Below are positions 5,385 to 30,237 of a stretch of DNA of 35,397 nt, piece after piece. The stretch is from assembly GCA_015486015.1 (NCBI GenBank), contig WFSL01000023.1, forward strand, positions 1 to 35,397, read 5' to 3'. The translations under genes and the position numbers were made by a program. A model generated the notes under the pieces. It was not told the origin of the DNA. It did not search any database and worked only from the letters and a program-made list of their open reading frames with translations. The DNA is from Aquificota bacterium (GTDB lineage Bacteria > Thermosulfidibacterota > Thermosulfidibacteria > Thermosulfidibacterales > B14-G1). Each line of letters begins with the position of its first letter. The first letter of the stretch is position 1.

Positions 5385-7076
5385 ATGAGGAAGGTCTTTC
5401 TGGTAGCCTTGACAATGTTCATTATGGCCTTGGGTGAGGAGGCCTATGCCCAGCGTCCTTCCCGGGCCCAGGTATATGCCGACATTGTGACCATGCAGCT
5501 CCTCCGTATGGAAGGGGCCTCTCCAGCGAGGATTCTCCCATTGTGTAAGAGGATATTGGGGGTTATGCCTGTTCCCCAGGCGTATGTAGACATGGCCCAC
5601 ATCCTTTTGGAGGTGGGGGACTTAAAAACAGCCATAGATACCTTAGAGGAGGGGGCGGAGAAGTTCCCCAATGATTTCACTCTGCAGGTCCTCCTTGGGG
5701 AGATCTATGGGGACGTGGGAAAGAAAAATCATGCCCTCTTACACTTCGATAAGGCCCTGAGGATAAACCCCAAGGACGAGAGGGTGTACCAGAGGCTGAT
5801 AGGGCTGTATGTGGAAGAGGGAAACTACGAAGCAGCCAATACCCTGCTGGGGAAATGGGAGAAGGCCATGCCCCATTCCGTTTCCCTCTACCTCACCTGG
5901 GCAAGGGTTTACATCTCCATGGGTCTTTCCAATAGGGCCCTGGAGAAGCTTCAGGATGCCTCGAGAGAACATCCTGATAACCCTGATGTCTTTAGATTGA
6001 TGGGGCGGTTGTACGAGCTTAATGGAAACACAGAAGGGGCTATCAAGGCGTATAAGAAGCTGCTGGAGCTATCTCCGACTTCTGTTGATGCCTTGGGGCA
6101 CCTCGGAGAGCTTTATATTCAGGAGAAGAAGTACCCCTCTGCATTAAAGATATATAGGTCTCTTCTGAAGAGCCATCCAGGGTATCCACAGCTTTCGGCC
6201 AGGGTTGCCTCCATTTTAGTGGCCATGGACAGGAAGAAGGAGGCCCTTCGGACAATAAATGATGCCCTGAAGGTGCACAAAGACGAACGTCTCCTATTCA
6301 TGAAGGCCCTCCTCTTGGAGGATATGGGGAGAAAAGGGGAGGCACTGAGGCTGCTGTGTGGTGTGGTGGCTAAGGGTGGGACCCACGACCCCTCTTTTTA
6401 TATTCAGATAGCAAGCATCTATATGGACAAGGGTGATCGTGAGAGGGCCATAACTGTTTTACGAAGTGGCATCATGGTGCAGCCAGATGCCCCCCAGCTT
6501 TATAAGGCCCTTGCAATCGTTTATAATGAAATAGGGAAAAAAGAAGAGGCGTTGATGAATGCAGCCTATGCAGTGGTTCTCAGGCCCCATGATCCCTCTT
6601 ATCTCTTTTCTCTGGGTGCCCTTTTGGAAAGGCAGGGCCAATGGAAGAAGAGTGAGAAGTTTCTCAAAAGGGCCTTGAAGCTGGATCCCCAAAACCCCTC
6701 TCTGCTTAACTACTTGGGATATATGTACATAGACAGGGGAGTAAATCTGGATGAGGGGATTAGCCTGGTGCGGAAGGCATTGGCCATAAGGCCCAACAAT
6801 CCATATTATCTTGACTCCCTTGCCTGGGGGCTTTTCAAGAAGGGAAAGCTCAAAAGGGCGAGGCAGATTCAGGAAGGGGCATTGAGGCGGATCAAGGAGA
6901 AGAACGCCATCATGCTAAGCCATATGGGTGCCATTTACATGGCTCTGGGTATGAAGGAAAAGGCAAAGGCCCTGTATGCTGAGGCCCTCAGGCACTTGAA
7001 TAACAAGGAGTTGAGCACCTGGGAGCGGGAAGAGATCATCCGTTCGGCCAGGGCATTAGGACTATTATCGCCCTAA
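5385..7076 (+). CDS. Secreted tetratricopeptide-repeat protein
   Basis: A 563-aa protein with a Sec signal peptide (MRKVFLVALTMFIMALGEEAYAQ, cleavage likely after AYA) followed almost wholly by TPR units, roughly a dozen 34-residue helix pairs. Examples are IYGDVGKKNHALLHFDKALRI, LGALLERQGQWKKSEKFL and IRPNNPYYLDSLAWGLFKKG. TPR arrays are protein-binding scaffolds, and in the periplasm they often serve envelope assembly. I chose ATG 5385 over the upstream GTG because it follows TAAGGAAG and starts a textbook signal peptide. The stop overlaps the next gene's ATG (TAATG), so the lipoprotein is probably its partner. No specific function can be named. Confidence 0.85.
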   Translation: MRKVFLVALTMFIMALGEEAYAQRPSRAQVYADIVTMQLLRMEGASPARILPLCKRILGVMPVPQAYVDMAHILLEVGDLKTAIDTLEEGAEKFPNDFTLQVLLGEIYGDVGKKNHALLHFDKALRINPKDERVYQRLIGLYVEEGNYEAANTLLGKWEKAMPHSVSLYLTWARVYISMGLSNRALEKLQDASREHPDNPDVFRLMGRLYELNGNTEGAIKAYKKLLELSPTSVDALGHLGELYIQEKKYPSALKIYRSLLKSHPGYPQLSARVASILVAMDRKKEALRTINDALKVHKDERLLFMKALLLEDMGRKGEALRLLCGVVAKGGTHDPSFYIQIASIYMDKGDRERAITVLRSGIMVQPDAPQLYKALAIVYNEIGKKEEALMNAAYAVVLRPHDPSYLFSLGALLERQGQWKKSEKFLKRALKLDPQNPSLLNYLGYMYIDRGVNLDEGISLVRKALAIRPNNPYYLDSLAWGLFKKGKLKRARQIQEGALRRIKEKNAIMLSHMGAIYMALGMKEKAKALYAEALRHLNNKELSTWEREEIIRSARALGLLSP

Positions 7077-16963: not shown

Positions 16964-19900
16964 ATGATTAGGAGGGAGGAGCCCAGGATAGGCGTCTATA
17001 TCTGCCACTGTGGGATTAATATCTCCTATAAGGTGGATGTGGAGGAGGTGGTGGACTTTGCCTCTAAGTTGGAGCACGTGGTGGTGGCCCGTGATTACAA
17101 GTTTATGTGTTCTAACATAGGTCAGGAACTCATCATTAATGACATCAAGGAGTATGGCCTCAACAGGGTGGTGGTGGCATCTTGCTCACCGAGGATGCAT
17201 GAGAAGACCTTCCGCAATGCCTGCAAGAAGGCGGGACTGAACCCATATCTCTTCCAGATGGCCAGTATAAGGGAGCTGGTCTCATGGGTGACTGAGGATG
17301 AGAGGGAGGCTACGGAGAAGGCCAAAGATTATGTGGAGGCAGCAGTAAGGAGGGTGGCTAAGCACCAGCCTTTAGAACCAAGGATCGTGGACATCAACCC
17401 CAATGTGCTGGTGATTGGGGGAGGTATAGCGGGCATGCAGGCGGCCTTAGAGATTGCCGAGGGTGGGAAGACCGTTTATCTGGTGGAGAGGGAACCCAGT
17501 ATAGGAGGCCATATGGCCAAGTTTGACAAGACTTTTCCCACCTTAGACTGCGCCGCCTGTATCCTCACCCCTAAAATGGTGTCTGTGGGTCAGCATGAGA
17601 ACATCAAGCTCTTCACTTACAGTGAGGTAGAAGAGGTCTCAGGTTACATAGGAAACTTCGATGTGAAGATTAAAAAGAAACCCAGGTATGTGCTTGAGGA
17701 CAAGTGCACAGGCTGTTCTGAGTGCATCAAAGGTTGTCCAGTGACTCTGCCTAACGAGTTTGAGTATGGGATGATGGATAGGACTGCCATCTACCGTTCC
17801 TTCCCCCAGGCCGTTCCCAATGTCTTTGTCATCGATAAGGAAGGTTTCTCTCCCTGTCGCAATGCCTGCCCTGCAGGACTCAACGCTCACGGGTATGTGA
17901 AACTTGTCTCGGTCGGTAAGTACGAAGAGGCCTTTAAACTTATTATGGAGAGGGTGATCTTTCCTGCCAGCTTGGGGAGGGCGTGTCCAGCCTTCTGTGA
18001 GGAGGAATGTACCAGATGTCTGGCGGGAGGTCATGTGCAGATCAGGGCCTTAAAACGCTTTGTGGCAGATTGGTACTATGAGAATGTGGGCGTGAAGCTC
18101 CCCGTGGAATTGCCGGATGTGCAGAAAGACAAAAGGGTAGCGGTGGTAGGTGCTGGCCCAGCTGGCTTAGCTTGTGCATACTACTTGGCTATTCAGGGTT
18201 ATCCCGTTACGGTTTACGAGGCCTTGGAGAAACCTGGGGGCATGCTAAGATACGCCATTCCAGAGTACCGCCTGCCCAATCAGCTGGTGGATAAGGAGAT
18301 AGAGCTCATCAAGCAGGCAGGGGTGGAGATCGTGTGTAATACACCTGTGGGGGAGGGTGGGAAGTCTATAGATGAGCTGTTCGGCGAGGGGTACAAGGCC
18401 GTTTTTCTCGCCATTGGTGCCCATAGGGACAGGACCATGGGGATCCCCGGGGAAGACTTAAGGGGTATCTACACCTCTATTGGGTTTCTCAGGAGGGTTA
18501 ACCGTGGGGAAAAGGTGGAGCTTGGCGATAAGGTCTTTGTGGTGGGGGGAGGGAACTCTGCAGTTGATGCAGCAAGGGTGGCACTCCGTCTGGGATCGAA
18601 AGAGGTGACCATACTCTATAGGCGAAGTAGGGTGGAGATGCCAGCCTTCCCAGAGGAGGTAGAGGCTGCAGAGGAAGAGGGTGTTAAGCTTCAGATACTC
18701 ACCAACCCTGTCGCTTTTCATGGTGAGGATGGCAAACTCTCAGAGGTAGAGTGTGTGAGGATGGAACTGGGGGAACCCGATGAGTCCGGGCGCAGGCGCC
18801 CTATTCCCATAGAGGGTTCCAACTTTAAAGTACCAGCAGACTCGGTGATTTTGGCCATTGGACAGGCACCTGAATCTTCCGTGTTCAAGCAGGAAGGATT
18901 GGAGATAAACAGGGACGGTACCCTATGGGTGGATCCCGAAACCTTAGCCACCAATCGGGAAGGGGTCTTTGCGGGGGGAGATGCTACAAAAGGACCATCC
19001 ACTATTGTTGAGGCCATTGGACTGGGGAGGAGGGCAGCAGAGTATATTCGGAGGTATGTGGAAGGGGAGGACCTGAGGGCTAAGCCTTATGAGGAGCACT
19101 GGCTGGAGACAGTGGACAAGGAAGAGGTACTGAGGAGGCGCCGGTATACTGTGAGCCCACCTACGAGTCTTGTCAAGAGGCCTTCTCACGAGAGGATAAA
19201 GGACTTCAAGGAGGTGGAGGCCACCCTTTCAGAGGAGGCAGCGCTGGCGGAAGCTAAGAGGTGTTTAGATTGTGCTGGGTGCTGCGAGTGTCGTCAGTGC
19301 GAGCTGCTTTGCGAGGCACAGGCCATTGATCATCATATGAAGGAAGAGATCGTTGAGGTGAAGGTGGGCTCTATCATTGTGGCCACTGGCTTTAAGACCT
19401 TTGATCCTACACCCTTAATCCAGTATGGATACAAGCGGTATCCGGAAGTTTATACCAGTATAGAGTTTGAGAGGATAAACAACGCGGCTGGCCCCACTGA
19501 AGGGCAGATTAGAATGAAGGATGGTCGGGTGCCCGAGAGGGTGGCCATCATCCATTGTGTGGGTTCAAGAGACGAAAACACAAACCGCTACTGCTCCCGG
19601 GTATGCTGTATGTACTCCATGAAGTTTGCCCACCTGGTGCGGGAGAAGACTGGAGCAGAGGTTTTTGAGTTCTACATTGATATCAGGGCCCCGGGTAAAA
19701 TGTATGAGGAGTTTTATAACCGCCTCCAGGAGGAGGGAACCCATTTCATTAGGGGGAAGGTGGCTGAGGTTACAGACGTGGCTATGAGCCCGGAAGAGGA
19801 GGGGAGGCTCATTGTGGTGGCTGAGGATACATTGGCAGGCAAGGTCAGGCGCATCCCCGTGGATATGGTGATCCTTTCTGTTGGGCTTCAGGCAGCAGAT

Positions 19901-20353
19901 GGTGCCGAAGAGGTGGCCCACTTAGTAGGGATATCCCAGGATCAAGATGGGTGGTTCATAGAGCTTCATCCTAAGCTTGCCCCAGTCTCTACTGCCAGTG
20001 ACGGGGTGTTTATAGCTGGGTGTTGTCAGGGGCCAAAGGACATACCTGACACTGTGTCTCAGGCATCGGGTGCAGCAGCGGAGGCCCTCTCCCTCATCAT
20101 GAGAGGACAGGTGGAGGTGGAGGCTGCCACCTCTTACATAGATCCAGAGGTGTGTGTGGGTTGTCAGCAATGCAAAAGGATATGCATGTACTCCGCTATA
20201 GACTACGATCCCGCCCGGGGGGTCTGTGTGGTGAATGAAGCCATTTGTAAAGGGTGTGGGCTTTGCGCCGCCACATGCCCCAACAAGGCTGTGACTACAA
20301 AACACTTCAACAATGTAGAGATATTCTCCGAGCTTGAAGGGATATTGCTATGA
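16964..20353 (+). CDS. hdrA: HdrA with an inserted GltD-like NAD(P)H oxidoreductase module
   Basis: A 1129-aa flavoprotein, nearly twice the usual HdrA length. Order: N-terminal HdrA domain (1-140), FAD site VLVIGGGIAGMQAA (148-161), CAAC-ILTPKMV (196-206), and Fe-S motif CTGCSECIKGCP (248-259). An insert from about 297 to 760 matches the glutamate synthase small subunit: CRNACPAG, FPASLGRACPAFCEEEC, FAD motif VAVVGAGPAGLA (392-403), NAD(P) motif VFVVGGGNSAVDAA (about 525-538), and VFAGGDA. HdrA resumes with CLDCAGCCECRQCELLC, then VGSRDENTNRYCSRVCC, and ends with two ferredoxin clusters (about 1064-1105). HdrA hosts flavin-based electron bifurcation, and the insert supplies a direct NAD(P)H port. 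It overlaps mvhD by 4 nt. Confidence 0.92.
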   Translation: MIRREEPRIGVYICHCGINISYKVDVEEVVDFASKLEHVVVARDYKFMCSNIGQELIINDIKEYGLNRVVVASCSPRMHEKTFRNACKKAGLNPYLFQMASIRELVSWVTEDEREATEKAKDYVEAAVRRVAKHQPLEPRIVDINPNVLVIGGGIAGMQAALEIAEGGKTVYLVEREPSIGGHMAKFDKTFPTLDCAACILTPKMVSVGQHENIKLFTYSEVEEVSGYIGNFDVKIKKKPRYVLEDKCTGCSECIKGCPVTLPNEFEYGMMDRTAIYRSFPQAVPNVFVIDKEGFSPCRNACPAGLNAHGYVKLVSVGKYEEAFKLIMERVIFPASLGRACPAFCEEECTRCLAGGHVQIRALKRFVADWYYENVGVKLPVELPDVQKDKRVAVVGAGPAGLACAYYLAIQGYPVTVYEALEKPGGMLRYAIPEYRLPNQLVDKEIELIKQAGVEIVCNTPVGEGGKSIDELFGEGYKAVFLAIGAHRDRTMGIPGEDLRGIYTSIGFLRRVNRGEKVELGDKVFVVGGGNSAVDAARVALRLGSKEVTILYRRSRVEMPAFPEEVEAAEEEGVKLQILTNPVAFHGEDGKLSEVECVRMELGEPDESGRRRPIPIEGSNFKVPADSVILAIGQAPESSVFKQEGLEINRDGTLWVDPETLATNREGVFAGGDATKGPSTIVEAIGLGRRAAEYIRRYVEGEDLRAKPYEEHWLETVDKEEVLRRRRYTVSPPTSLVKRPSHERIKDFKEVEATLSEEAALAEAKRCLDCAGCCECRQCELLCEAQAIDHHMKEEIVEVKVGSIIVATGFKTFDPTPLIQYGYKRYPEVYTSIEFERINNAAGPTEGQIRMKDGRVPERVAIIHCVGSRDENTNRYCSRVCCMYSMKFAHLVREKTGAEVFEFYIDIRAPGKMYEEFYNRLQEEGTHFIRGKVAEVTDVAMSPEEEGRLIVVAEDTLAGKVRRIPVDMVILSVGLQAADGAEEVAHLVGISQDQDGWFIELHPKLAPVSTASDGVFIAGCCQGPKDIPDTVSQASGAAAEALSLIMRGQVEVEAATSYIDPEVCVGCQQCKRICMYSAIDYDPARGVCVVNEAICKGCGLCAATCPNKAVTTKHFNNVEIFSELEGILL

Positions 20354-20814
20354 AGGTTGAGGAAGAAAGGATGAAGAACGAAAGAGAAACAGAAGGGGTA
20401 TTTGAGCCCAAGATAGTGGGGTTTTTGTGTTACTGGTGTAGTTACACAGCCGCGGATCTCGCTGGGGTAAGTAGGATGAAGTATCCTCCTAACCTGAGGG
20501 TTATGAGGGTGATGTGCTCCAGTAGGGTGGACCCGGTTTTCATAATAAAGGCGCTATTGGATGGTGCGGATGGCGTTTTAGTGGCGGGGTGCCATCCGGG
20601 GGATTGCCATTATCAGAAGGGGAACTATTACGCCAGGAGGAAGATAGCCTTGACCAAAAGGCTATTGGAGAGTCTGGGCCTGGAGCCAGAGAGGGTGAGG
20701 CTTTCTTGGATAGCTGCTTCTGAGGGGCCAAGATTTGCAGAAGTGGCTAAGGAATTTACAGAGCGGATAAGGCAGCTTGGGCCTAATCCGGCCAAGGGGG
20801 CACTGTTCCTGTGA
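20350..20814 (+). CDS. mvhD: MvhD-like iron-sulfur protein (first copy)
   Basis: A 154-aa protein of the F420-non-reducing hydrogenase delta-subunit family, which carries a [2Fe-2S] cluster and docks electron-delivering partners onto HdrA. Seen: GFLCYWCSYTAADLAGVSR, VMCSSRVDP and the signature AGCHPGDCHYQKGN. All conserved Cys are present. The ATG is within the HdrA stop (ATGA). The charged first 20 residues (KVEEERMKNERETEG) are extra; a second ATG at 20371 is an alternative start. It precedes the double HdrA by 12 nt. Confidence 0.9.
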   Translation: MKVEEERMKNERETEGVFEPKIVGFLCYWCSYTAADLAGVSRMKYPPNLRVMRVMCSSRVDPVFIIKALLDGADGVLVAGCHPGDCHYQKGNYYARRKIALTKRLLESLGLEPERVRLSWIAASEGPRFAEVAKEFTERIRQLGPNPAKGALFL

Positions 20815-20826
20815 GGGAGGTGAGCC

Positions 20827-23814
20827 GTGGATAAAGAGAGCACTGTGTTGGTCTACGGCACCAATTTGGCAGGTTACAGGGCAGCTTATGCCTTGGCCAA
20901 GATAGGCTACAGGACCGTGCTCCTCAATCGGGGTGCATATGTGGATGAGTATAGGAATCAAGCCTTGGCGCAGCTGCCTTTGGACTTTTGTTGGGCCTGT
21001 GGTCATATGCCCCAGAGGCTCTTTATTGGGTTAGGGGCCATGCAGGTCTTTTATAACGCAGACCTCTTGGAGGTTAAGGGAGAGCCTGGTCACTTCACCG
21101 TGAAGATCAAAAAGAGAGATCACTACATAAATAACTTTGCCTGCACCGAGTGTGAGGCATGCATAAGGGCATGTCCAGTGGAAGTGGAAGAGGCTGGCAA
21201 GAAGAGGAAGGCCATCTACGTGTGCCCGGAGATCGCATGGGAGAACATCTTCATCATAGATGAAGAGCATTGTACCAAATGTGGCGAGTGTGAAAAGGTT
21301 TGCCCCACTGGTTGCCTCAAGCTGGATAGAACAGAGGAGACAATAGAGATGGACGTAGGGGCTATAGTCCTGGCACCTGAGTATGATGAGCCTACCGAAG
21401 ATGATCTTGCCAAATTTGGTTTTGGCAAAGTTTCCAATGTGGTGAAGTCTTCGGACTTGGCCAGGAGCTCTCTCTTCACAAACTTTGTGAGGAATTCCTT
21501 GGAGCGTCCCTCTGATGGCAGCCTTCCCAAAAGCGTGGCGGTTGTGGTGACCCCTCAGTACAACCATGGGGTGGAGTACGAGAGTTACAATGCCACCATC
21601 TCCGCCATTTACCGGGCGGTGAGGACTAAGGAGCTCATGCCTGAGGCACATGTGGTGGTCTTCTTCAGGGAATTCCGAGGTTTTGGTAAGGGGCATTATC
21701 GGTGGTACGAGAGGGCCTTAGAGTTGGGAATAGAGATCGTCAGGGCTTGGGATCTCAGTGTGGATAAGGGCAAGAAGAAGGGCGACGTAAAAATAAGGTA
21801 CACCTTGGGTGATCAAGAAAAGACCCTGGAGACAGAGCTGGTCATCCTTATTACAGGCCAGAAGCCCCCCACCGTTATGGAGAAGCTCTCTAAGGTTACG
21901 GGGGTGGAGGCGGACGAGCACGGATTTTGTAAGGTGCTACCCTTTACCTGTGGCAAGACTACCCAGGAGGGTGTCTTCGCCGTGGGTGAGTTTACAGGGC
22001 CTAAGGGCAATCCTGAGGTAGTGTGGGAGGGATACGGTGTGATTCCAGAGATAGTGGAATGTTTGGGTGAGAAGAATTTCTCTCCTGCTCCTCCTCCACA
22101 GCTCAGGGATGTTTCTGGTGAAGAGCCTAAAGTGGGGGTTTTTATCTGCTCCTGCTTCGGGGAGTTTAACAACTATATGGATCTGGATGCCTTGGTAGAA
22201 AAGGTAAGAGATCTACCGGGGGTGGCTCACGTAGAGATCATTAATGGGTGTTGTACACCCCCCACCATACAGGAGACCGCTCAGAGGATTAGGGATGCCC
22301 GGGTAAACCGGGTGGTGCTTGCGGCCTGTACCCCGCTGCAGAAGCTCCTGAAGTTCAGGCGAGTGGTGATGATGGCGGGGCTTAATCCGCTCCTCTCGGA
22401 GTTCCTAAGGCTCAGGGAGGATGTGATCAGGGTGCATGAAGACAGGGAAGGTATGCTTGAAAAGGCCTTTGTCCTTATCGCCTCTGGTGTGGAGAAGGTG
22501 AGAAAGGCCCAGGCTGCGCCTCCGCCGATGGAGACGTTCCATAGTGCGGCGTTGGTGATTGGTGGAGGTCCCTCTGGGATGGAAGCGGCCCTTGCTATAG
22601 CTGATGGAGGTTTCCCTGTGACCCTGGTGGAGAGGGAACAGGAACTGGGGGGTCTGGCCAAGGGGCTGCGCAAGGACCTCGAGGGGCATGACCTGTCTGG
22701 TTATCTCGCTCAACTGATCCAAAGGGTGGAGCAGCATCCCAATATAGGCCTCTATAAGGGGGTCCAGATCAAGGATTTGTGGGGGTATGCTGGTCATTTC
22801 TATGCCGAGTTGGAGGCAGGGGGAGAGGTAAAACTCGTTCAGGCAGGTGTGGTAATCCCTGCCATGGGGGCCAAACCCTTTGAGCCCAAAGGGGCCTTTC
22901 TCTATGGTGAAGATGAGCGTGTTGTCACCCAAAGCGAGTTGGAAGATTTGCTGGCTAAGGGGAAGGTACCTCCTGGTCCTGTAGTGATGATCCAATGCGT
23001 AGGCTCCAGGAATGAGTCCCATCCCTACTGTAGTAGGGTTTGCTGTTCTCAGGCCATCAAGAATGCCCTGGACTTGGTGGAGAGGGGCATAGAGGTCACC
23101 ATTCTCTATAGGGACCTCAACACGTACGGCTTTAAGGAAGATTACGGTATACTGGCCCGCGAGAAGGGGGTGAAGTTTATACGATTCTCGGCGGATAGGT
23201 ATCCCCAGGTGAGTCTCTCCAATGGGGAGCTCAAGGTTCAAGTCCATGACTTAGAGCGGGACTCTGTGGAAACTTTGGAGGCTGGGACTGTAGCGCTGTC
23301 TGTGGGGATGGTTCCGGACGTAGAGAACTATGCGAAGGTTGCGCAGTGGTTGGGATATAAGCTCGATTCCCAGGGCTTCTTCGATACAGAGACTAGCATG
23401 TGCCCCTATGAGGAGGCCATCAAGAGGCTCATGAAGCCGTGGGAGTTGTCCAGTAATGGGGTGTTTCCTGTGGGATTGGTTCATTCCCCGCGCTCCTTCA
23501 CAGAGGCCCTTCTCACTGCAAAGGATGCAGCAGGGCGTGCCCTTACCTTGTTGGGTAAGTCTCAGCTCCCGCCACCCAATGCCATGTATGTCTCGGCAGT
23601 AAAGGAGTCCAAGTGTGTGGGATGCGGTTTGTGCGTGGATGTGTGCCCTTACTATGCCAGGGAGATAGATGAGGCTCAAGGGGTGGCCAAGGTAAGGCCC
23701 TATCTCTGCGATGCCTGTGGGGCCTGTTTGGTGGCGTGCCCCAGTGAGGCGGCCTACTTGAGGGATGCCAGAGGAGAGCAGATGATTCCCAGTATAGACG
23801 CTTTGTTGCTGTAG
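20827..23814 (+). CDS. Tandem double HdrA-like flavoprotein
   Basis: A 995-aa protein made of two HdrA-like halves. The first half (1-430) has a weak FAD motif (VLVYGTNLAGYRAA), an unusual FCWACGH at 54-60, and Fe-S motifs CTECEACIRACP (106-117) and CTKCGECEKVCP (149-160). The second half (from about 431) restarts with an HdrA N-terminal domain (VGVFICSCFGEF), has the clear FAD motif ALVIGGGPSGMEAA (about 576), VGSRNESHPYCSRVCC (about 725) and two C-terminal ferredoxin motifs, CVGCGLCVDVCP and CDACGACLVACP (930-972). It lacks the CAAC-LTPKM segment of HdrA. GTG 20827 follows GGGAGGTGAG. QmoB-like proteins are an alternative comparison. Confidence 0.85.
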   Translation: MDKESTVLVYGTNLAGYRAAYALAKIGYRTVLLNRGAYVDEYRNQALAQLPLDFCWACGHMPQRLFIGLGAMQVFYNADLLEVKGEPGHFTVKIKKRDHYINNFACTECEACIRACPVEVEEAGKKRKAIYVCPEIAWENIFIIDEEHCTKCGECEKVCPTGCLKLDRTEETIEMDVGAIVLAPEYDEPTEDDLAKFGFGKVSNVVKSSDLARSSLFTNFVRNSLERPSDGSLPKSVAVVVTPQYNHGVEYESYNATISAIYRAVRTKELMPEAHVVVFFREFRGFGKGHYRWYERALELGIEIVRAWDLSVDKGKKKGDVKIRYTLGDQEKTLETELVILITGQKPPTVMEKLSKVTGVEADEHGFCKVLPFTCGKTTQEGVFAVGEFTGPKGNPEVVWEGYGVIPEIVECLGEKNFSPAPPPQLRDVSGEEPKVGVFICSCFGEFNNYMDLDALVEKVRDLPGVAHVEIINGCCTPPTIQETAQRIRDARVNRVVLAACTPLQKLLKFRRVVMMAGLNPLLSEFLRLREDVIRVHEDREGMLEKAFVLIASGVEKVRKAQAAPPPMETFHSAALVIGGGPSGMEAALAIADGGFPVTLVEREQELGGLAKGLRKDLEGHDLSGYLAQLIQRVEQHPNIGLYKGVQIKDLWGYAGHFYAELEAGGEVKLVQAGVVIPAMGAKPFEPKGAFLYGEDERVVTQSELEDLLAKGKVPPGPVVMIQCVGSRNESHPYCSRVCCSQAIKNALDLVERGIEVTILYRDLNTYGFKEDYGILAREKGVKFIRFSADRYPQVSLSNGELKVQVHDLERDSVETLEAGTVALSVGMVPDVENYAKVAQWLGYKLDSQGFFDTETSMCPYEEAIKRLMKPWELSSNGVFPVGLVHSPRSFTEALLTAKDAAGRALTLLGKSQLPPPNAMYVSAVKESKCVGCGLCVDVCPYYAREIDEAQGVAKVRPYLCDACGACLVACPSEAAYLRDARGEQMIPSIDALLL

Positions 23815-23824
23815 GAGGAGAGTG

Positions 23825-24253
23825 ATGGGAGGCAATGGGTTTATTCCGAAAATCCTCTATGCCTTGTGCGCCTGGTGTGGTACAGGCGGATCCGAGACTG
23901 CCGCAGCCCTGTGGCTCAAGTATCCAGAGAATGTGCGCCCCTTTAGGGTGGTGTGTACTGGGGCCTTGGACCCTGCATACGTACTGAGGGCCTTAATTGA
24001 AGGTGCCGATGGGATGGTAGTAAGTGGGTGCCATCCAGGTGATTGCCACTATAACCTGGGCAACTTCAGGGCAAGGAGGCGTTTGGCAGTGATGAAGGAG
24101 GTGCTGAACACCCTGGGGCTGGATGGCGATCGTCTATGGCTAAGGTGGGTAGCTCATGGGGAAGGGAAGAGGCTGGTGGACACGGCCTTCGAGTTTGATG
24201 CCCATATTCGGGGGAAGGGCCCCAATCCCTTAGTGAAACGTTGGGATACCTGA
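23825..24253 (+). CDS. MvhD-like iron-sulfur protein (second copy)
   Basis: A 142-aa paralogue of the MvhD-like protein at 20350. Conserved: ALCAWCGTGGSETA, VCTGALDP, GCHPGDCHYNLGN. It differs from the first copy in the first motif (GTGGSETA in place of SYTAADLA), so the two are not recent duplicates and may serve different HdrA partners. ATG 23825 is preferred over GTG 23822, with AGGAGGAG upstream. It lies between the double HdrA and the second FdhB-like gene. Confidence 0.88.
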   Translation: MGGNGFIPKILYALCAWCGTGGSETAAALWLKYPENVRPFRVVCTGALDPAYVLRALIEGADGMVVSGCHPGDCHYNLGNFRARRRLAVMKEVLNTLGLDGDRLWLRWVAHGEGKRLVDTAFEFDAHIRGKGPNPLVKRWDT

Positions 24254-24259
24254 GGAGAT

Positions 24260-25408
24260 ATGAACGTGTTTGTTACTAAGGGGGAAGGGAGAGGGAATTT
24301 GGTTTTCAGGGCCCTGTTGAAGGGGCTTATGGAGAAGGATGTGGTGAAGGTTGCCCTGGTTTGTGCTGAGGATCCCACAGGCAACTCGTTTGTCCACGTC
24401 TTGACAGGTGATACCTCTGTGGTTGAATCCTCTTGGCCTGTGCCCCCTGTGATGCCTGTTCAAGGGGCACGGGTGGTCTCTAAAATCACAAGGAAAGGGC
24501 CAGTAGAGTTGCCTACAGCAGTAGTGCTCCGTCCGTGCGAGCTCAGGGCTATGAGGGAGCTTGTGAAGCTTAATCAGGTAAAATTGGACGGCCTGCTTAC
24601 TATAAGTTTTGACTGCCCAGGAGTTTATCCCTTGCAGCAGTATTTATCGGGGGATAGATCTTTTATGAAGGCAAGCATTGATGAGGCCTTTGGCCACTTT
24701 GACCTCTCAGGCACCAGGCCACTGTGTCAAATATGCCATAGATTCACTGGGGAGCTGGCAGATGTAGAGGTGGGATTCCTGGGGGCCCCAGATGAAGGGC
24801 ACTATCTCATTGGTCATACTCGGAGAGGGGAGGAGGCATTGAAGGCCCTGGGTTACCAAGAGGAGGTGGATCTGGAGAGGCGTGTGGACGCTGTTCAGGA
24901 GGTGATTAAGCAAAGGATAGAGGCCCGCGAGGGTTACTTCAAGGGGGAGTTTGGCCCTAAGGTGGTTGGTGTAGAGGCCTTATTAACCACACTCCATGTG
25001 TGTATAAATTGCCACAATTGCATGAGAGTTTGTCCTATCTGCTTTTGCAGGGAGTGTTTCTTCGACTCTGATGCCCTGAAGGTTTTACCAGGGAACTACC
25101 TGGTGAGGGCAGAGAGGAAGGGGGCCTTGCGGTTTTTACCCGATACCCTCCTTTTCCACTTAGGGAGGATGAATCACATGAGCACTTCGTGTGTTTCCTG
25201 CGGCACCTGTGAGGATGCGTGCCCTAACGATGTGCCCGTTTCCAGGCTCTTTGCCATGGTGGCAGACAAGACACAGGCCATCTTCGATTATGAACCGGGG
25301 CAAGACCTGGATAGGCCTATTCCGTTTATAGATTATCAGGATGAGGAGCTTCACGATTATGAAGAGCCTTATATAGAGAGCACCACCCATCGACCATCCT
25401 CTTCATAA
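24260..25408 (+). CDS. FdhB/FrhB-like iron-sulfur protein (second copy)
   Basis: A 382-aa paralogue of the protein at 14468. Shared blocks: VVLRPCELRAMRELVKLNQ, ISFDCPGVYPL, the Cys-rich CINCHNCMRVCPICFCRECFF, PDTLLFHLGRMNHM and CVSCGTCEDACPNDVP. It probably pairs with the second MvhD and the double HdrA, as the first copy may pair with HdrCBA. ATG 24260 follows TGAGGAG. It is the last gene of the operon, with a terminator about 30 nt downstream. Confidence 0.85.
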   Translation: MNVFVTKGEGRGNLVFRALLKGLMEKDVVKVALVCAEDPTGNSFVHVLTGDTSVVESSWPVPPVMPVQGARVVSKITRKGPVELPTAVVLRPCELRAMRELVKLNQVKLDGLLTISFDCPGVYPLQQYLSGDRSFMKASIDEAFGHFDLSGTRPLCQICHRFTGELADVEVGFLGAPDEGHYLIGHTRRGEEALKALGYQEEVDLERRVDAVQEVIKQRIEAREGYFKGEFGPKVVGVEALLTTLHVCINCHNCMRVCPICFCRECFFDSDALKVLPGNYLVRAERKGALRFLPDTLLFHLGRMNHMSTSCVSCGTCEDACPNDVPVSRLFAMVADKTQAIFDYEPGQDLDRPIPFIDYQDEELHDYEEPYIESTTHRPSSS

Positions 25409-25475: not shown

Positions 25476-26654
25476 TCAGTAGCTTTCCATGACCCAGTGG
25501 CCGTTTTCGACCCTTACCATAATCATGGAGTCCACGCCCAATCCGTTGTGGTCTTTTGGGGACATTGTGTACACACCGCTTATGCCCACGTAACCTTTGG
25601 TCTTTTCTATGGCGTCTCTCAGTCTTTCTCTGTCTGGTCCGGACTTCCTCATGGCTCGTGTGAGGATCATGAGAGCATCCCAAGCGTATCCAGAGTGGGT
25701 GTTGATGGGGAACTCCTTATCATAGTGGTAGACGTCCTTATAAAGGTGAACGAACCTGGCTATCACGGGTTTCTGTGGATCCTTGTCGGGGAGCTGTTGC
25801 CAAGCCATGAGCTTGGTGGAGGGCATAATGCTTCCATTGGCAGCCTCCCCGGCTAACTCTACATACTTGGGATCGGGGAGACCATGGCATTGGATCAGGG
25901 GAACATTGATCCCCAACTGTTTCACGTTCTTGGCCACTATTGAGCCTGCTGGCCCAATGGTCCAGCAGATGATTGCCTGAGGGTTCTTGGTCCTGATGCT
26001 GGCCAGTTGGCTGGTCATATCTGTATCGCTGGGGCTGAAAGACTCTTGGGCCACCACCTTTATCCCGTACTGGGGCGTCAGCTTCAGCAACCATCGTTTT
26101 CCATCCTTCCCAAAGCCATCGGAAGAAGTGAGGATGGCCACCGTTTTGATCCCCTTCTTCTTGAGGTATATGAAGATCTTCTTTACGGCTGTACTGGACC
26201 GCTGAGGCGTCTTGAAGATGTAGCGGTAAGAACCGAATCTGCCACCCATTATCACTGGGTCGCCTCCAACGGTCATGATGGTAGGCACATGGGCCTGTTC
26301 CACGATCTTCTTCACTGCCATGCCCGTGCCCGTTCTCGTAGGGCCTATGATGGCTACCACCTTGTCCACATAGATGAACTTCTTGGCTATGGCCACGGCC
26401 TTTGTAGGGTCACCCTCGGTATCGCCGAAGACCAGCTCAATAGGCCTTCCGTTGATCCCTCCTTGCCTATTGATCTCATCTGCTGCCATTTGGGCTACGA
26501 GCTTGGTAGGTGTGCCGATGAAGGCAGCTGGTCCTGAGAGGGCAAAAAACGCCCCCACCTTGATAGGTTCTTTCTTTGCTGCCACCTTCTCCTTAGCCAA
26601 GGCTGGCTGAATCACCAGTCCAATAAAAAGCAGAACTACCATTAATTTCTTCAT
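25476..26654 (-). CDS. livK: LIV-type ABC transporter substrate-binding protein
   Basis: A 392-aa periplasmic binding protein (Peripla_BP_6, LivJ/LivK family). A Sec signal peptide is clear (MKKLMVVLLFIGLVIQPALA). The mature part has IKVGAFFALSGPAAFIGTP, AADEINRQGGINGRPIELVFGDTEGDP and VVAIIGPTRTGTGMAV, the standard first-lobe motifs. ATG 26654 follows GGGGGGAAG; the open frame further upstream is not coding. It is the last gene of livHMGF-livK, 58 nt after livF. Binding specificity cannot be read from sequence, but the attenuator upstream of livH points to tryptophan or another aromatic amino acid. Confidence 0.92.
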   Translation of the reverse strand: MKKLMVVLLFIGLVIQPALAKEKVAAKKEPIKVGAFFALSGPAAFIGTPTKLVAQMAADEINRQGGINGRPIELVFGDTEGDPTKAVAIAKKFIYVDKVVAIIGPTRTGTGMAVKKIVEQAHVPTIMTVGGDPVIMGGRFGSYRYIFKTPQRSSTAVKKIFIYLKKKGIKTVAILTSSDGFGKDGKRWLLKLTPQYGIKVVAQESFSPSDTDMTSQLASIRTKNPQAIICWTIGPAGSIVAKNVKQLGINVPLIQCHGLPDPKYVELAGEAANGSIMPSTKLMAWQQLPDKDPQKPVIARFVHLYKDVYHYDKEFPINTHSGYAWDALMILTRAMRKSGPDRERLRDAIEKTKGYVGISGVYTMSPKDHNGLGVDSMIMVRVENGHWVMESY

Positions 26655-26712: not shown

Positions 26713-27435
26713 TCACCTCCTTTTCTTGCCAAGATAAGCGGTCTTTACCTTCTCCTCCTCTAAGAGTCTTGAAGAAGGTCCCTTTATTGCTACTCTTCCC
26801 GCTTCCAGTACGTACGCCCTGTCAGACACAGAAAGGGCCTCTCTGGCGTTTTGTTCCACCAGGAGGATGGTGCCCCCGTCATCCCTTAGCCGGGAAATTA
26901 CGTTGAATATCTCCTTCACTACCATGGGGGCCAGTCCTAAGCTGGGCTCGTCTAAGGCTAAGAGCTTCGTGTTTCCTACCAGTGCTCTCCCAATAGCCAG
27001 CATCTGCTGTTCCCCTCCACTGAGGATCCCTGCACGCAGATGGAGCCTCTTTTTGAGGAGTGGGAAGAGCTGTAACACATAGTCTAAATCTTCCTTGCTC
27101 TTGGCCTTTTCTTGAGGGGTTCTTTTGAGGTACGCTCCCAATTCCAGGTTCTCAGAGACAGTGAGGGGAGCGAAGATGCGCCTCCCTTCTGGCACCTGGC
27201 AAAGGCCTAACCGAACGATTTTGTGGGGTTTCTTGCCCTGTATAGGTATCCCCCTGAAGGTGATGGTTCCCCTCTGGGCCTTTACCAGGCCGGAGAGTGC
27301 ATTAAGGAGGGTGGTCTTTCCTGCTCCATTTCTCCCAATAATGGCGACAATCTCCCCTTTGGATACGTGGAGGTTTACCCCTTTTAGTGCGTGAAGTCCC
27401 CCATAATAAACATGGAGGTCCTGGACAATGAGCAT
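26713..27435 (-). CDS. livF: LIV-type ABC transporter ATP-binding protein LivF
   Basis: A 240-aa ATPase of the branched-chain amino acid-type ABC transporter. Seen: Walker A GRNGAGKTT, Q-loop region VPEGRRIFAPLTVSENLELGAYL (LivF signature), ABC signature LSGGEQQMLAIGRAL, Walker B LLALDEPSLGLAP and the switch His region LLVEQN. The ATG overlaps the livG stop (TGATG), so the two are coupled. It forms a heterodimer with LivG under the LivH-LivM channel. Confidence 0.95.
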   Translation of the reverse strand: MLIVQDLHVYYGGLHALKGVNLHVSKGEIVAIIGRNGAGKTTLLNALSGLVKAQRGTITFRGIPIQGKKPHKIVRLGLCQVPEGRRIFAPLTVSENLELGAYLKRTPQEKAKSKEDLDYVLQLFPLLKKRLHLRAGILSGGEQQMLAIGRALVGNTKLLALDEPSLGLAPMVVKEIFNVISRLRDDGGTILLVEQNAREALSVSDRAYVLEAGRVAIKGPSSRLLEEEKVKTAYLGKKRR

Positions 27436-28193
27436 CAGGCCCCTCCCAGATAGGCATCGATCACCTGGGGATCCTGCTGAACCTGTTGGGGAGTGCCCAG
27501 TGCTATCTTGTATCCGTGGTGGAGCACTAAGATTCTATGGCATACATCCATCACTAAGGAGATGTCGTGCTCGATGAGGATGAGTGTAATGCCTAACCCC
27601 CTCAGCCTCTCCAGCAGATCCCCCATCTCTTCTGTCTCCGCCTCATTCAGCCCTCCAGCAGGTTCGTCTAACATGAGGACCTTGGGATCACCTGCCAAGG
27701 CCCGGGCAATTACTACCTTCTTTTGCTCTCCGTATGGTAGGGCAAAGGCAGGCCAGTTGGCTTTTGCCTTCAAGCCCATAAGGTCCAGTAGATCCACAGC
27801 TTTTGCCGCTGCAGCCCTCTCCTCTTTCATCACCGAGGGAAGGTGTAGGAGACATGAGACTATGCCTGAGGATGAACGCGTATGATATCCGGCCATCACA
27901 TTCTCCAGTACTGTGATCTCAGGGAATATCTGAATGTGCTGAAACGTTCTGGCGATGCCCATCTTTGCCATGGCATGGGGGGGATAGCCGGTAACCCTTT
28001 CACCCCTGTAGAAGACCTCACCGGAGGTGGGCTTGTATATGCCAGAGATAATGTTGATCAGGGTGGTCTTCCCTGCCCCATTGGGGCCTATGATGCCCAA
28101 GATCTCCCCTTCCTTCAAGGAAAAGGAGATGCCTTTTAAGGCCTTCACTCCATTGAAGTGCTTCACTATCTCCTTAACGGCTAAGAGTTCCAT
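27435..28193 (-). CDS. livG: LIV-type ABC transporter ATP-binding protein LivG
   Basis: A 252-aa ATPase partner of LivF. Seen: Walker A GPNGAGKTTLINIISG, RTFQHIQIFPEITVLENVMAG (LivG signature), ALPYGEQKKVVIARAL as ABC signature (LPYGEQ in place of LSGGQ, common in LivG), Walker B VLMLDEPAGGLNE, and LILIEHD. ATG 28193 starts 1 nt after the livM stop. Confidence 0.95.
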   Translation of the reverse strand: MELLAVKEIVKHFNGVKALKGISFSLKEGEILGIIGPNGAGKTTLINIISGIYKPTSGEVFYRGERVTGYPPHAMAKMGIARTFQHIQIFPEITVLENVMAGYHTRSSSGIVSCLLHLPSVMKEERAAAAKAVDLLDLMGLKAKANWPAFALPYGEQKKVVIARALAGDPKVLMLDEPAGGLNEAETEEMGDLLERLRGLGITLILIEHDISLVMDVCHRILVLHHGYKIALGTPQQVQQDPQVIDAYLGGA

Positions 28194-28194
28194 T

Positions 28195-29166
28195 TTACTC
28201 CTGCACCTTCTTAAGCTGCGACATGAGCCGCCTCTTCTGATAGAGCTTTACCAACCCACCTGCCAGTCCCTGGGGGAGGAAGATGAGGACGCCCATGAAA
28301 ATAGCCCCATAGATGAGGTCTTTGTACTCCTCAAAGAAGTGGAGCAAATAGGGCAAGGGTGTGAGAAAAGCGGAGCCCAGCAAGGCCCCCCATAGAGAGC
28401 CTATGCCCCCAACGATTACCATAGCCACTACCTCTATGGAGTAAAAGATATCGAAGGTCTTGGGGCTTATGAAGCTCATGTAATGTGCATAGAGTGAGCC
28501 GGCCAGAGAGGCCATCAGCGCACTGACGATAAATACCTCTGTCTTGCATCTCCAGGTCTCTATCCCCAAGCAGCTGGCCGCCACCTCACTCTCTCTGATG
28601 GCCATCAGTGCCCTCCCCATCCTTGAGTGGACCAGGTTAAATGCGAGGAAGAGGCCCAGTAGTGCGAAGAACCAGACGAGCCAGTAGCACCTGAGATCCG
28701 TGGTGAAGCCCCACGTGCCTATGGTGTAGTATGGGATACGCGAGAGGCCGGATGGTCCTCCGGTAATGTCGTCGAGTTGGATCAATAGGATATAGACGAT
28801 GAGATTGAAGCCAAGGGTGGCCATTACCAGGTAATGCCCCCTAAGTCGGAGGGTGGGGATGCCTATGATGAGGGCTATCATCCCGGTGAGTGCCATGGCT
28901 ATCCCGGTGGTGATCCAGGGATTCCATCCCAGGTGTATAGCAAGGAGGGCAGAGATGTAGGCCCCCATAGCGTAAAAACCCCCGTGGCCCAGAGATATCT
29001 GGCCGGCGTAGCCTATGAGTAAGGTGAGACCTGCCACTACCAGGACGTTGAGTGCTACAATATTTAAGACATTGAGGTAGTAAGGGTTCCTCATTACCAA
29101 GGGAATGGAGAAGATCATGGCCCCCATTGTCAATAGAAGAAGCCTATCTCTTGCCAGGGGGCTCAT
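28195..29166 (-). CDS. livM: LIV-type ABC transporter permease LivM
   Basis: A 323-aa inner-membrane permease with about nine hydrophobic segments. Signatures: NVLVVAGLTLLIGYAGQISLGHGGFYAMGAY and GRALMAIRESEVAASCLGI (the EAA-like loop contacting the ATPase), plus VVGGIGSLWGALLGSAFL. I chose ATG 29166, which overlaps the livH stop (ATGA) behind GGAGAGGG; an upstream ATG at 29178 is possible. It pairs with LivH to form the channel. Confidence 0.94.
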   Translation of the reverse strand: MSPLARDRLLLLTMGAMIFSIPLVMRNPYYLNVLNIVALNVLVVAGLTLLIGYAGQISLGHGGFYAMGAYISALLAIHLGWNPWITTGIAMALTGMIALIIGIPTLRLRGHYLVMATLGFNLIVYILLIQLDDITGGPSGLSRIPYYTIGTWGFTTDLRCYWLVWFFALLGLFLAFNLVHSRMGRALMAIRESEVAASCLGIETWRCKTEVFIVSALMASLAGSLYAHYMSFISPKTFDIFYSIEVVAMVIVGGIGSLWGALLGSAFLTPLPYLLHFFEEYKDLIYGAIFMGVLIFLPQGLAGGLVKLYQKRRLMSQLKKVQE

Positions 29167-30041
29167 ACCCTCTCCCATTCTTCCTTACCCAGGATCCCCC
29201 TGGGTCTCAAGAAGAGGACCAACAGTAGCACTACAAATGCTATGACATCCTTGTATGTTGATGAGATGAGTCCTGCACCTAAGGACTCCAAGAGGCCCAG
29301 CAGTAGCCCCCCTATCACTGCCCCCATCACGTCTCCATATCCACCCAGGACCGCTGCAGCGAAACCTTTAAGCCCCAGCATCACCCCCATGTCGAACGTC
29401 ATGGTGGTGATAGGTATAATGAGTATCCCAGCCACGGCCCCAACCCCTCCTGCCAAGGCCAATGAAAGCATCATCATAGCTTCCACGTTGATTCCCATGA
29501 GTGCTGCCGCCTTTGGGTCATAGGCCACCGCCTTCATGGCTTTGCCCTGTTTGGTGTGGTGAAAAAAGTGATGAAGGGCCAAGAAGACAGCAATGGTCCC
29601 ACCTATCACCCATAGGCTCTGGGGGAGTATCCTGGCACCAAGCAGATCGATGGGGTGTGCCCCAGAGAAGTAGGGGAGGGATTTGGGGCTCTTTCCCCAT
29701 ATGAGTTTGATGCCCCCTCGGATGAAAATGGATGCCCCTATGGTGATGAAGACCAGAACCACTGTCTCCTTGGATTTGGCTAGACGCAAAGCGAAGCGCT
29801 CCATGGCGGCACCTATCAGGGCTACTGCCAGTACTGAGAGGACGATAGCTGGGAGGATGGAGAGGTGTAGTGCATAGAGCATGGAGAACATGAACATCCC
29901 ACCTAAGGTGAGGAAGTCCCCTTGGGCAAAATTAACGATTTTCATAGAGTTCTCTACAATGCAGAAGCCCAAGGCAATTAAGGCATAAATAGCCCCTGTA
30001 GTGGTCCCGGAGAAGATGAACTGGGCCAGGTTTTGGTTCAC
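29163..30041 (-). CDS. livH: LIV-type ABC transporter permease LivH
   Basis: A 292-aa inner-membrane permease and first structural gene of the transporter operon. Signatures: GTTTGAIYALIALGFCIVENSMKIVNFAQGDFLTLGG and GKAMKAVAYDPKAAALMGIN (cytoplasmic EAA-like loop), VLGGYGDVMGAVIGG. The start is GTG 30041, 6 nt after GGAGG. The frame stays open upstream, but that part is the attenuator leader and is not conserved. The gene begins only 11 nt after the terminator-type hairpin, so its transcription depends on read-through of the leader. Confidence 0.94.
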   Translation of the reverse strand: MNQNLAQFIFSGTTTGAIYALIALGFCIVENSMKIVNFAQGDFLTLGGMFMFSMLYALHLSILPAIVLSVLAVALIGAAMERFALRLAKSKETVVLVFITIGASIFIRGGIKLIWGKSPKSLPYFSGAHPIDLLGARILPQSLWVIGGTIAVFLALHHFFHHTKQGKAMKAVAYDPKAAALMGINVEAMMMLSLALAGGVGAVAGILIIPITTMTFDMGVMLGLKGFAAAVLGGYGDVMGAVIGGLLLGLLESLGAGLISSTYKDVIAFVVLLLVLFLRPRGILGKEEWERV

Positions 30042-30052
30042 CGTTTGCCTCC

Positions 30053-30086
30053 AAACAGAAAGGCTGTGGGTCAAGGCCCACAGCCT
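30053..30086 (-). terminator. Attenuator terminator hairpin before livH (regions 3:4)
   Basis: AGGCTGTGGG (30086-30077) pairs perfectly with CCCACAGCCT (30070-30061) around a 6-nt loop. TTCTGTTT follows (30060-30053). It is an intrinsic terminator placed between the leader peptide and livH on the minus strand. Confidence 0.75.
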
Positions 30087-30135
30087 GATCTCCTCTGCCG
30101 CGGGCCTCTGCCTGCCCACGGCCCCAATACCAAAG

Positions 30136-30201
30136 TCAGGCCTGGGACAAGCAGATAACCCCGCGCCACCACCAAGCCTGAATGTGGGTCCTTCTTTCCA
30201 T
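30136..30201 (-). CDS. Leader peptide with three consecutive Trp codons
   Basis: A 21-codon ORF starting at ATG 30201 and ending with TGA at 30138-30136. Codons 10-12 are TGG TGG TGG (30174-30166). The stop codon lies inside attenuator region 2, as in classical leader peptides. The Shine-Dalgarno match is weak (AAGAAAG), and if the adjacent TTGACA promoter is used the mRNA would start almost at the ATG, so it may be translated leaderless. Confidence 0.65.
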   Translation of the reverse strand: MERRTHIQAWWWRGVICLSQA

Positions 30202-30208
30202 GTTGTCT

Positions 30209-30237
30209 TTCTTAAGAAAGGATACTCACAGTGTCAA
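30209..30237 (-). promoter_or_regulatory. Promoter of the liv leader with overlapping palindrome
   Basis: On the minus strand a perfect TTGACA (30237-30232) is followed after 17 nt by TAAGAA (30214-30209, weak -10). CTTTCTTAAGAAAG (30220-30207) is a perfect 14-bp palindrome over the -10, a possible operator. Confidence 0.5.

Follow-up and report, generated by a model that had tools for sequence, protein, structure and literature searches.

A predicted tryptophan attenuator upstream of an ABC importer operon for a putative aromatic solute in an uncultured bacterial phylum

Attenuation of transcription by a translating ribosome is a classical form of control. In the trp attenuator (trpL of E. 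coli, Sinorhizobium meliloti, Streptomyces and Corynebacterium), a short open reading frame (ORF) with consecutive Trp codons, mutually exclusive stems and an intrinsic terminator precede the first gene. The leader described here, which lies upstream of a livH-type permease gene, shares all of these elements, but it is predicted to control a transporter operon, comprises six strands rather than four and matches no Rfam model. The leader ORF of S. meliloti trpL has been reported to be leaderless (PMC7298713, PMC10117765), as we predict for the livH leader. The six-strand logic is common to the his attenuator of E. coli and Salmonella, in which helices AB, CD and EF stand against an alternative DE (PMC10989985), although the control codons of the livH leader are Trp rather than His, and the likeness is one of architecture, with no sequence relation claimed.

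Two described systems link such control to transport. The His-leader attenuators of hisXYZ, in which ribosome-mediated attenuation was proposed for an ABC amino acid transporter (PMC9413887), set a precedent for the idea, the livH case differing in amino acid, transporter family and lineage. In Streptococcus, Trp-tRNA charging is known to control the ABC transporter trpXYZ through a Trp T-box (PMC9382623). Unlike the livH leader, the T-box RNA binds the tRNA directly and acts without a leader peptide. The binding protein of trpXYZ presumably also belongs to a different family from that of the livH operon. In the literature searched, whose coverage was partial, we found no LIV-type importer of the aromatic-acid-like kind behind a Trp leader.

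The leader lies on the minus strand of a 35,397-nucleotide stretch of DNA analysed as a whole (the window), flanked by a gene for a hybrid histidine kinase (32450-30270) on one side and an ABC operon of five genes on the other. We favour, at a rough probability of 0.87, the reading that transcription of an importer for an aromatic, tryptophan-related solute is controlled by ribosome-mediated attenuation of the trp type.

The livH leader and its alternating helices

A preliminary description of this locus had reported a 21-codon leader ORF with Trp-Trp-Trp at 30174-30166, a 10-bp terminator hairpin 11 nt before the livH start and three alternative pairings (1:2, 2:3 and 3:4). The coordinates of the ORF and its Trp codons were confirmed in the sequence, as was the hairpin (30086-30061), whose U-rich tract ends 11 nt before the livH GTG (30041; Table 1). 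The leader ORF, its Trp run and the helices also occur 5' of orthologous livH genes in four further genomes from this order (five in all), three from the same family (75-80% LivH identity) and one from another family (60%). The orthologous leader peptides are MEGCFIWQAWWWRRVVCPPQA, MRIDSINQAWWWRGEVCPLRA, MKGFNINQAWWWWQGLVCPLRA and MMVQMAHSNGFWWWCRGEVCPGAA, and all five livH leaders hold at least three consecutive TGG codons (WWW or WWWW). Behind each orthologous leader ORF come GGCCGTGGGCAGGC, a strand resembling GCCCAYGGC, GGCTGTGGGC and finally the terminator.

An unbiased scan for all ungapped helices of at least 7 bp whose strands pair in four or more of the five aligned livH leaders yielded exactly four, namely E:F (11 bp), C:D (10), D:E (10) and B:C (8), against a mean of 0.12 and a maximum of two helices in column shuffles of the alignment. 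Nearly all cells of these helices are paired (39/40 for B:C, 49/49 for C:D and 54/55 for E:F), and a further pairing, A:B, which joins strand A at the Trp codons to the last part of the ORF, is kept in four of the five leaders and displaced in G005. As predicted from the alignment, the livH leader is thus an array of six strands that can form five helices (A:B, B:C, C:D, D:E and E:F), which displaced the simple three-stem model after the scan: the mutually exclusive stems of the preliminary description stand, whereas its three pairings give way to a relay shared with trpE, aro and leu leaders.

Covariation among the five livH leaders is weak, with one compensatory pair and other changes that are one-sided and keep the pairing, because the strands hardly vary. 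The comparison of orthologous leaders that had been proposed as a check came out in favour of the attenuator, Trp runs and alternative stems being kept in five genomes; covariation was dropped as the main proof since five such close leaders vary too little. Single-sequence statistics are modest as well: folding of the leader gives an energy z-score of -3.4, with one of 200 shuffles equally stable, a modest value by itself, and the 30086-30061 hairpin is the sole terminator-like site in the 600 bp scanned, where shuffles give 0.7, so that the scan alone is not significant. The U-tract of this terminator (TTCTGTTT) is broken by other bases. What sets the leader apart from chance is its conservation in five genomes, which is decisive over the shuffles.

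Table 1 Coordinates of the leader, the importer operon and related leader loci. Positions refer to the window unless a genome, contig or locus is given.
Feature	Coordinates	Strand	Description	Basis
Promoter	30209..30237	-	TTGACA (30237-30232), 17-nt spacer, TAAGAA (30214-30209)	predicted position
Leader ORF MERRTHIQAWWWRGVICLSQA	30136..30201	-	ATG to TGA, 21 codons plus TGA; conserved in G001, G002, G003 and G005	
Control codons, three Trp	30166..30174	-	TGG TGG TGG = TGGTGGTGG	sequence
Strand A CAGGCTTGG	30172..30180	-	9 bp with 30145-30137 (CCAGGCCTG)	sequence
Strand B TCTGCTT	30149..30155	-	predicted partner under ribosome stall, 30117-30111 of strand C	
Strand C GGCCGTGGGCAGGC	30110..30123	-	partner B or D; invariant in 5/5 livH leaders	
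Strand D GCCCGCGGC	30097..30105	-	partner C, or E (30084-30076) as predicted antiterminator	
Terminator hairpin	30061..30086	-	strands E (30086-30077) and F (30070-30061); 10 pairs, 6-nt loop	
U-rich tract of terminator TTCTGTTT	30053..30060	-		sequence
livH-type permease	29163..30041	-	GTG start; PF02653; LivH model score 137.8 bits (cut-off 379)	
livM-type permease	28195..29178	-	PF02653	
livG-type ATPase	27435..28193	-	PF00005, PF12399	
livF-type ATPase	26713..27435	-	PF00005	
Substrate-binding protein	25476..26654	-	PF13458; aromatic-acid-binding branch of the LIV/HAAT family, not LivK	
Aro-type leaders	L143 (G000:C2:34259-34411), L139, L140, L150, L151, L152, L153			
Phe-leader paaK-ACT loci	L169:11360-12822 (G000:C43), L172, L173, L174			

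In G000 the -10 hexamer of the putative promoter matches only weakly, and it is missing from the consensus-scan list. The offset from the start of TTGAC to the ATG is 34-38 nt in 14 of the 15 liv, trp and aro leaders of the phylum and 58-59 nt in the two Leu leaders examined. Transcription would start at the leader ATG or no more than 2 nt from it and, with the promoter abutting the ATG in this way, the leader mRNA is predicted to be leaderless.

When Trp-tRNA is plentiful, the ribosome would reach the TGA and cover strand B, C:D and E:F would pair, and transcription would end before livH. When Trp-tRNA is scarce, a ribosome stalled at the Trp codons would leave B free, so that B:C and D:E could pair, no terminator would form, and read-through would allow expression of livHMGF and the binding protein. 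Without translation, A:B, C:D and E:F would form and lead to termination. In folding calculations with a mask for the stalled ribosome over the Trp codons and a transcript ending at E, B:C and D:E formed in all five livH leaders and in both trp leaders tested; when the ribosome was placed at the stop codon of a full transcript, C:D and E:F formed in five of five livH leaders. For a ribosome at the stop codon and a transcript ending at E, D:E equalled or surpassed C:D in several leaders, and termination would thus rely on C:D folding first. We infer ribosome stalling, this order of folding and the response to Trp.

Leaders of related design in and beyond the phylum

A covariance model built from the five livH leaders and run over nine genomes of the phylum-level group found trpE leaders with WWW or WWWW, one of them in the same genome as the window. 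Leaders such as MNQTMMKMNYRIFNWFWFYYWWGLPMRSLSA, with Trp, Phe and Tyr codons, precede an operon for ADH synthase and DHQ synthase II; judged by these codons, the aro leader is a single predicted sensor of three aromatic amino acids. Leu-rich leaders with the six-strand relay were also present (L154, L156, L157 and L159), in three genomes 5' of leuA. The B:C, C:D, D:E and E:F helices recur in each of the trp, aro and leu sets, and the trp and aro sets contain compensatory pairs, their covariation being stronger than that of the livH leaders. Together with the conserved livH leaders, these paralogous relays on trpE, aro and leuA make Trp-dependent ribosome-mediated attenuation of livH operon transcription very likely on genomic evidence, and the attenuator first proposed for this operon is supported by its conserved Trp runs, its alternating helices and the trpE relay.

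Two of the trpE leaders (L041:1254-1414 and L047:12273-12471) carry tandem terminators, and the liv leader looks like a version of a trpE leader whose first hairpin lacks its U-tract. Outside the phylum, the covariance model matched one of 281 genomes, at tandem hairpins before a trpE-like gene. At this locus (L183; G051:C8:20847-20966) the hairpins have U-tracts and lie directly before the gene, on the opposite strand; the tandem design is therefore not confined to the phylum. In seven genomes, runs of Trp, Phe and Tyr codons (for example, NWFWFYYWW) stand before the operon that encodes the archaeal-type ADH synthase and DHQ synthase II. Leaders were also sought at a second LIV-type operon, which the genome of the window carries on contig C9, and at the other iorAB operons, and none was found at these sites.

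A four-strand form occurs in Phe-rich leaders (for example, MARESMICGGGFFFFGRLGP) in front of a PaaK-ACT operon, which suggests that phenylacetate may be assimilated into Phe. These Phe leaders (FSFF, FFFF and FFF) are accompanied by a conserved terminator 5' of paaK-ACT, and a second paaK and an indolepyruvate oxidoreductase (IOR) alpha gene come after it on the same contig.

Among 80 LivH relatives, a clear Trp leader was found only in the four members of the phylum among them and in two Desulfobacterota metagenome-assembled genomes (MAGs); several other short ORFs containing WW near LivH relatives look like chance. Both MAGs have a Trp leader (MHLNRSWPWWWSSKDRSAHTPT and MRLNRSWPWWWWSY) and a terminator 5' of livH, together with a B:C-like pairing, strong in one MAG but weaker in its counterpart, and one of the two operons reads livHMGF-paaK-paaK. 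The two Desulfobacterota leaders (L067 and L097) lie 160-280 nt 5' of livH at 6001 and are absent from the close relatives L062, L073, L090 and L093.

The importer, its cargo and rival readings

With two BPD_transp_2 permeases, two ATPases and a Peripla_BP_6 binding protein, the operon has the composition of a LIV/HAAT-type ABC importer. Its binding protein had been named as the livK product, a designation that does not fit: with the LivK model it reaches 69.6 bits, where the cut-off is 477, and thus does not score as the LivK/LivJ of a LIV-I system. Also absent is the Glu226 of a LIV-I branched-chain amino acid transporter, which in LIVBP holds the amino group of the ligand; all aligned orthologues of the binding protein have His at this position. 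The nearest solved structures, both by sequence and by the fold of an AlphaFold2 model (pLDDT 88.9), are 7ylt, 3uk0, 4f8j and 4dqd. For 7ylt, the top match, the output names no ligand; complexes with p-coumarate, 3-phenylpyruvate, caffeate and hydroxybenzoate outrank amino acid binding proteins in sequence and in fold. The aromatic-acid binding proteins of Rhodopseudomonas palustris (4f8j, 4dqd, 3uk0 and 4eyo) are the closest ligand-bound solved relatives by both measures and share the His at the Glu226 position, but they are only about 24-28% identical and lack the Arg and His that the window protein has at LIVBP positions 78 and 276.

Gene neighbourhoods point in the same direction. IOR and/or PaaK genes lie near 34 of the 52 closest LivH loci; among the 22 most distant LivH loci listed, IOR is near two and PaaK near five. 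Because of the binding-protein homology, the change of Glu226 to His and these neighbours, the cargo is probably an aromatic solute related to Trp. The aromatic part of the earlier proposal, import of tryptophan or aromatic amino acids, is thereby retained, whereas an amino acid becomes only one option, an indole or aryl acid precursor being at least as likely on the same three lines of evidence. The genome has a trpE-to-trpA cluster, an attenuated trp operon of its own, which speaks against a Trp auxotroph that needs the transporter; the importer would be a supplement, not a substitute for an auxotrophy.

Under one and the same attenuator, the cargo could be L-tryptophan, with Trp shortage inducing uptake and synthesis together. 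Such co-regulation is the usual pattern, as seen for hisXYZ with its his attenuators (PMC9413887) and for trpXYZ with its Trp T-box (PMC9382623), and the trpE operon of the same genome has the same control codons; yet the His at the Glu226 position in all orthologues, the nearest structures, which bind phenylpyruvate, coumarate, caffeate and hydroxybenzoate rather than amino acids, and the PaaK and IOR genes adjoining relatives all argue against it, leaving L-tryptophan as a minority possibility, albeit a serious one. Alternatively, the importer could carry an aryl acid that is made into Trp: indoleacetate, through a CoA ligase and a carboxylating indolepyruvate:ferredoxin oxidoreductase, or indolepyruvate or anthranilate directly. 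The aromatic-acid type of the binding protein and the PaaK and IOR neighbours of close relatives speak for such a cargo, as do the Trp leaders before livH in the two Desulfobacterota MAGs, one with paaK in the operon itself, and the Phe leaders before the PaaK-ACT-PaaK-IOR genes of the phylum, which fit a biosynthetic direction. Methanogens, moreover, assimilate phenylacetate and indoleacetate with PaaK and Ior by reductive carboxylation (PMC6737245). Conversely, the livH operon of the phylum itself is without phenylacetate-CoA ligase and IOR genes, IOR may also run in the oxidative direction, and the binding site is read from an alignment alone; we place the aryl-acid cargo at close to even odds. 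A precursor acid (indoleacetate, indolepyruvate or anthranilate) thus appears somewhat likelier than Trp itself. A broader scheme is tentative and falls somewhat short of an even chance: Trp shortage would induce import of an indole or aryl acid for conversion into Trp and, together with the Phe leaders on the PaaK/IOR cluster, the aryl-acid route would be biosynthetic and under amino-acid-specific attenuation, forming a salvage regulon read from leader peptides.

Readings without a ribosome-mediated attenuator fare far worse. One of them takes the hairpin for an ordinary terminator, or a weak constitutive one, and the Trp run for a coincidence. It would agree with a terminator scan that, taken alone, does not exceed chance, but it is very improbable given that the Trp run and the alternative helices are conserved in five genomes and that related leaders stand before trpE. 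Even less probable is a tRNA-binding T-box or a ligand-binding riboswitch in place of a translated leader: both are known on amino acid transporters in Firmicutes (PMC9382623, PMC2494555), but the translatable ORF and its matching codon runs are conserved in frame, and Rfam gave no family match for the window at gathering thresholds; over the leader itself, a search relaxed to E = 10 returned chance matches only, with neither a T-box nor a Trp leader among them.

If a Trp-responsive attenuator indeed governs livH, leader codons would act as a direct label of the amino acid that an operon serves. Here they would move a transporter that would be annotated as branched-chain into tryptophan supply and mark the phenylacetate-CoA ligase/IOR cluster of the phylum as phenylalanine supply. 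The direction of the IOR route is not readable from a genome alone (PMC6737245), and such labels make it testable. A single attenuator design, with six strands and with aromatic leaders predicted to be leaderless, is also seen to recur on the trp, aro, leu and transport operons of an uncultured phylum.

Two other parts of the window were noted, both on the plus strand. The 3' end of an IOR alpha gene opens the window and is followed by the beta subunit (1-979), and a convergent cluster encoding HdrA-like, MvhD-like and iron-sulfur subunits (16964-25408) adjoins the end of the liv operon.
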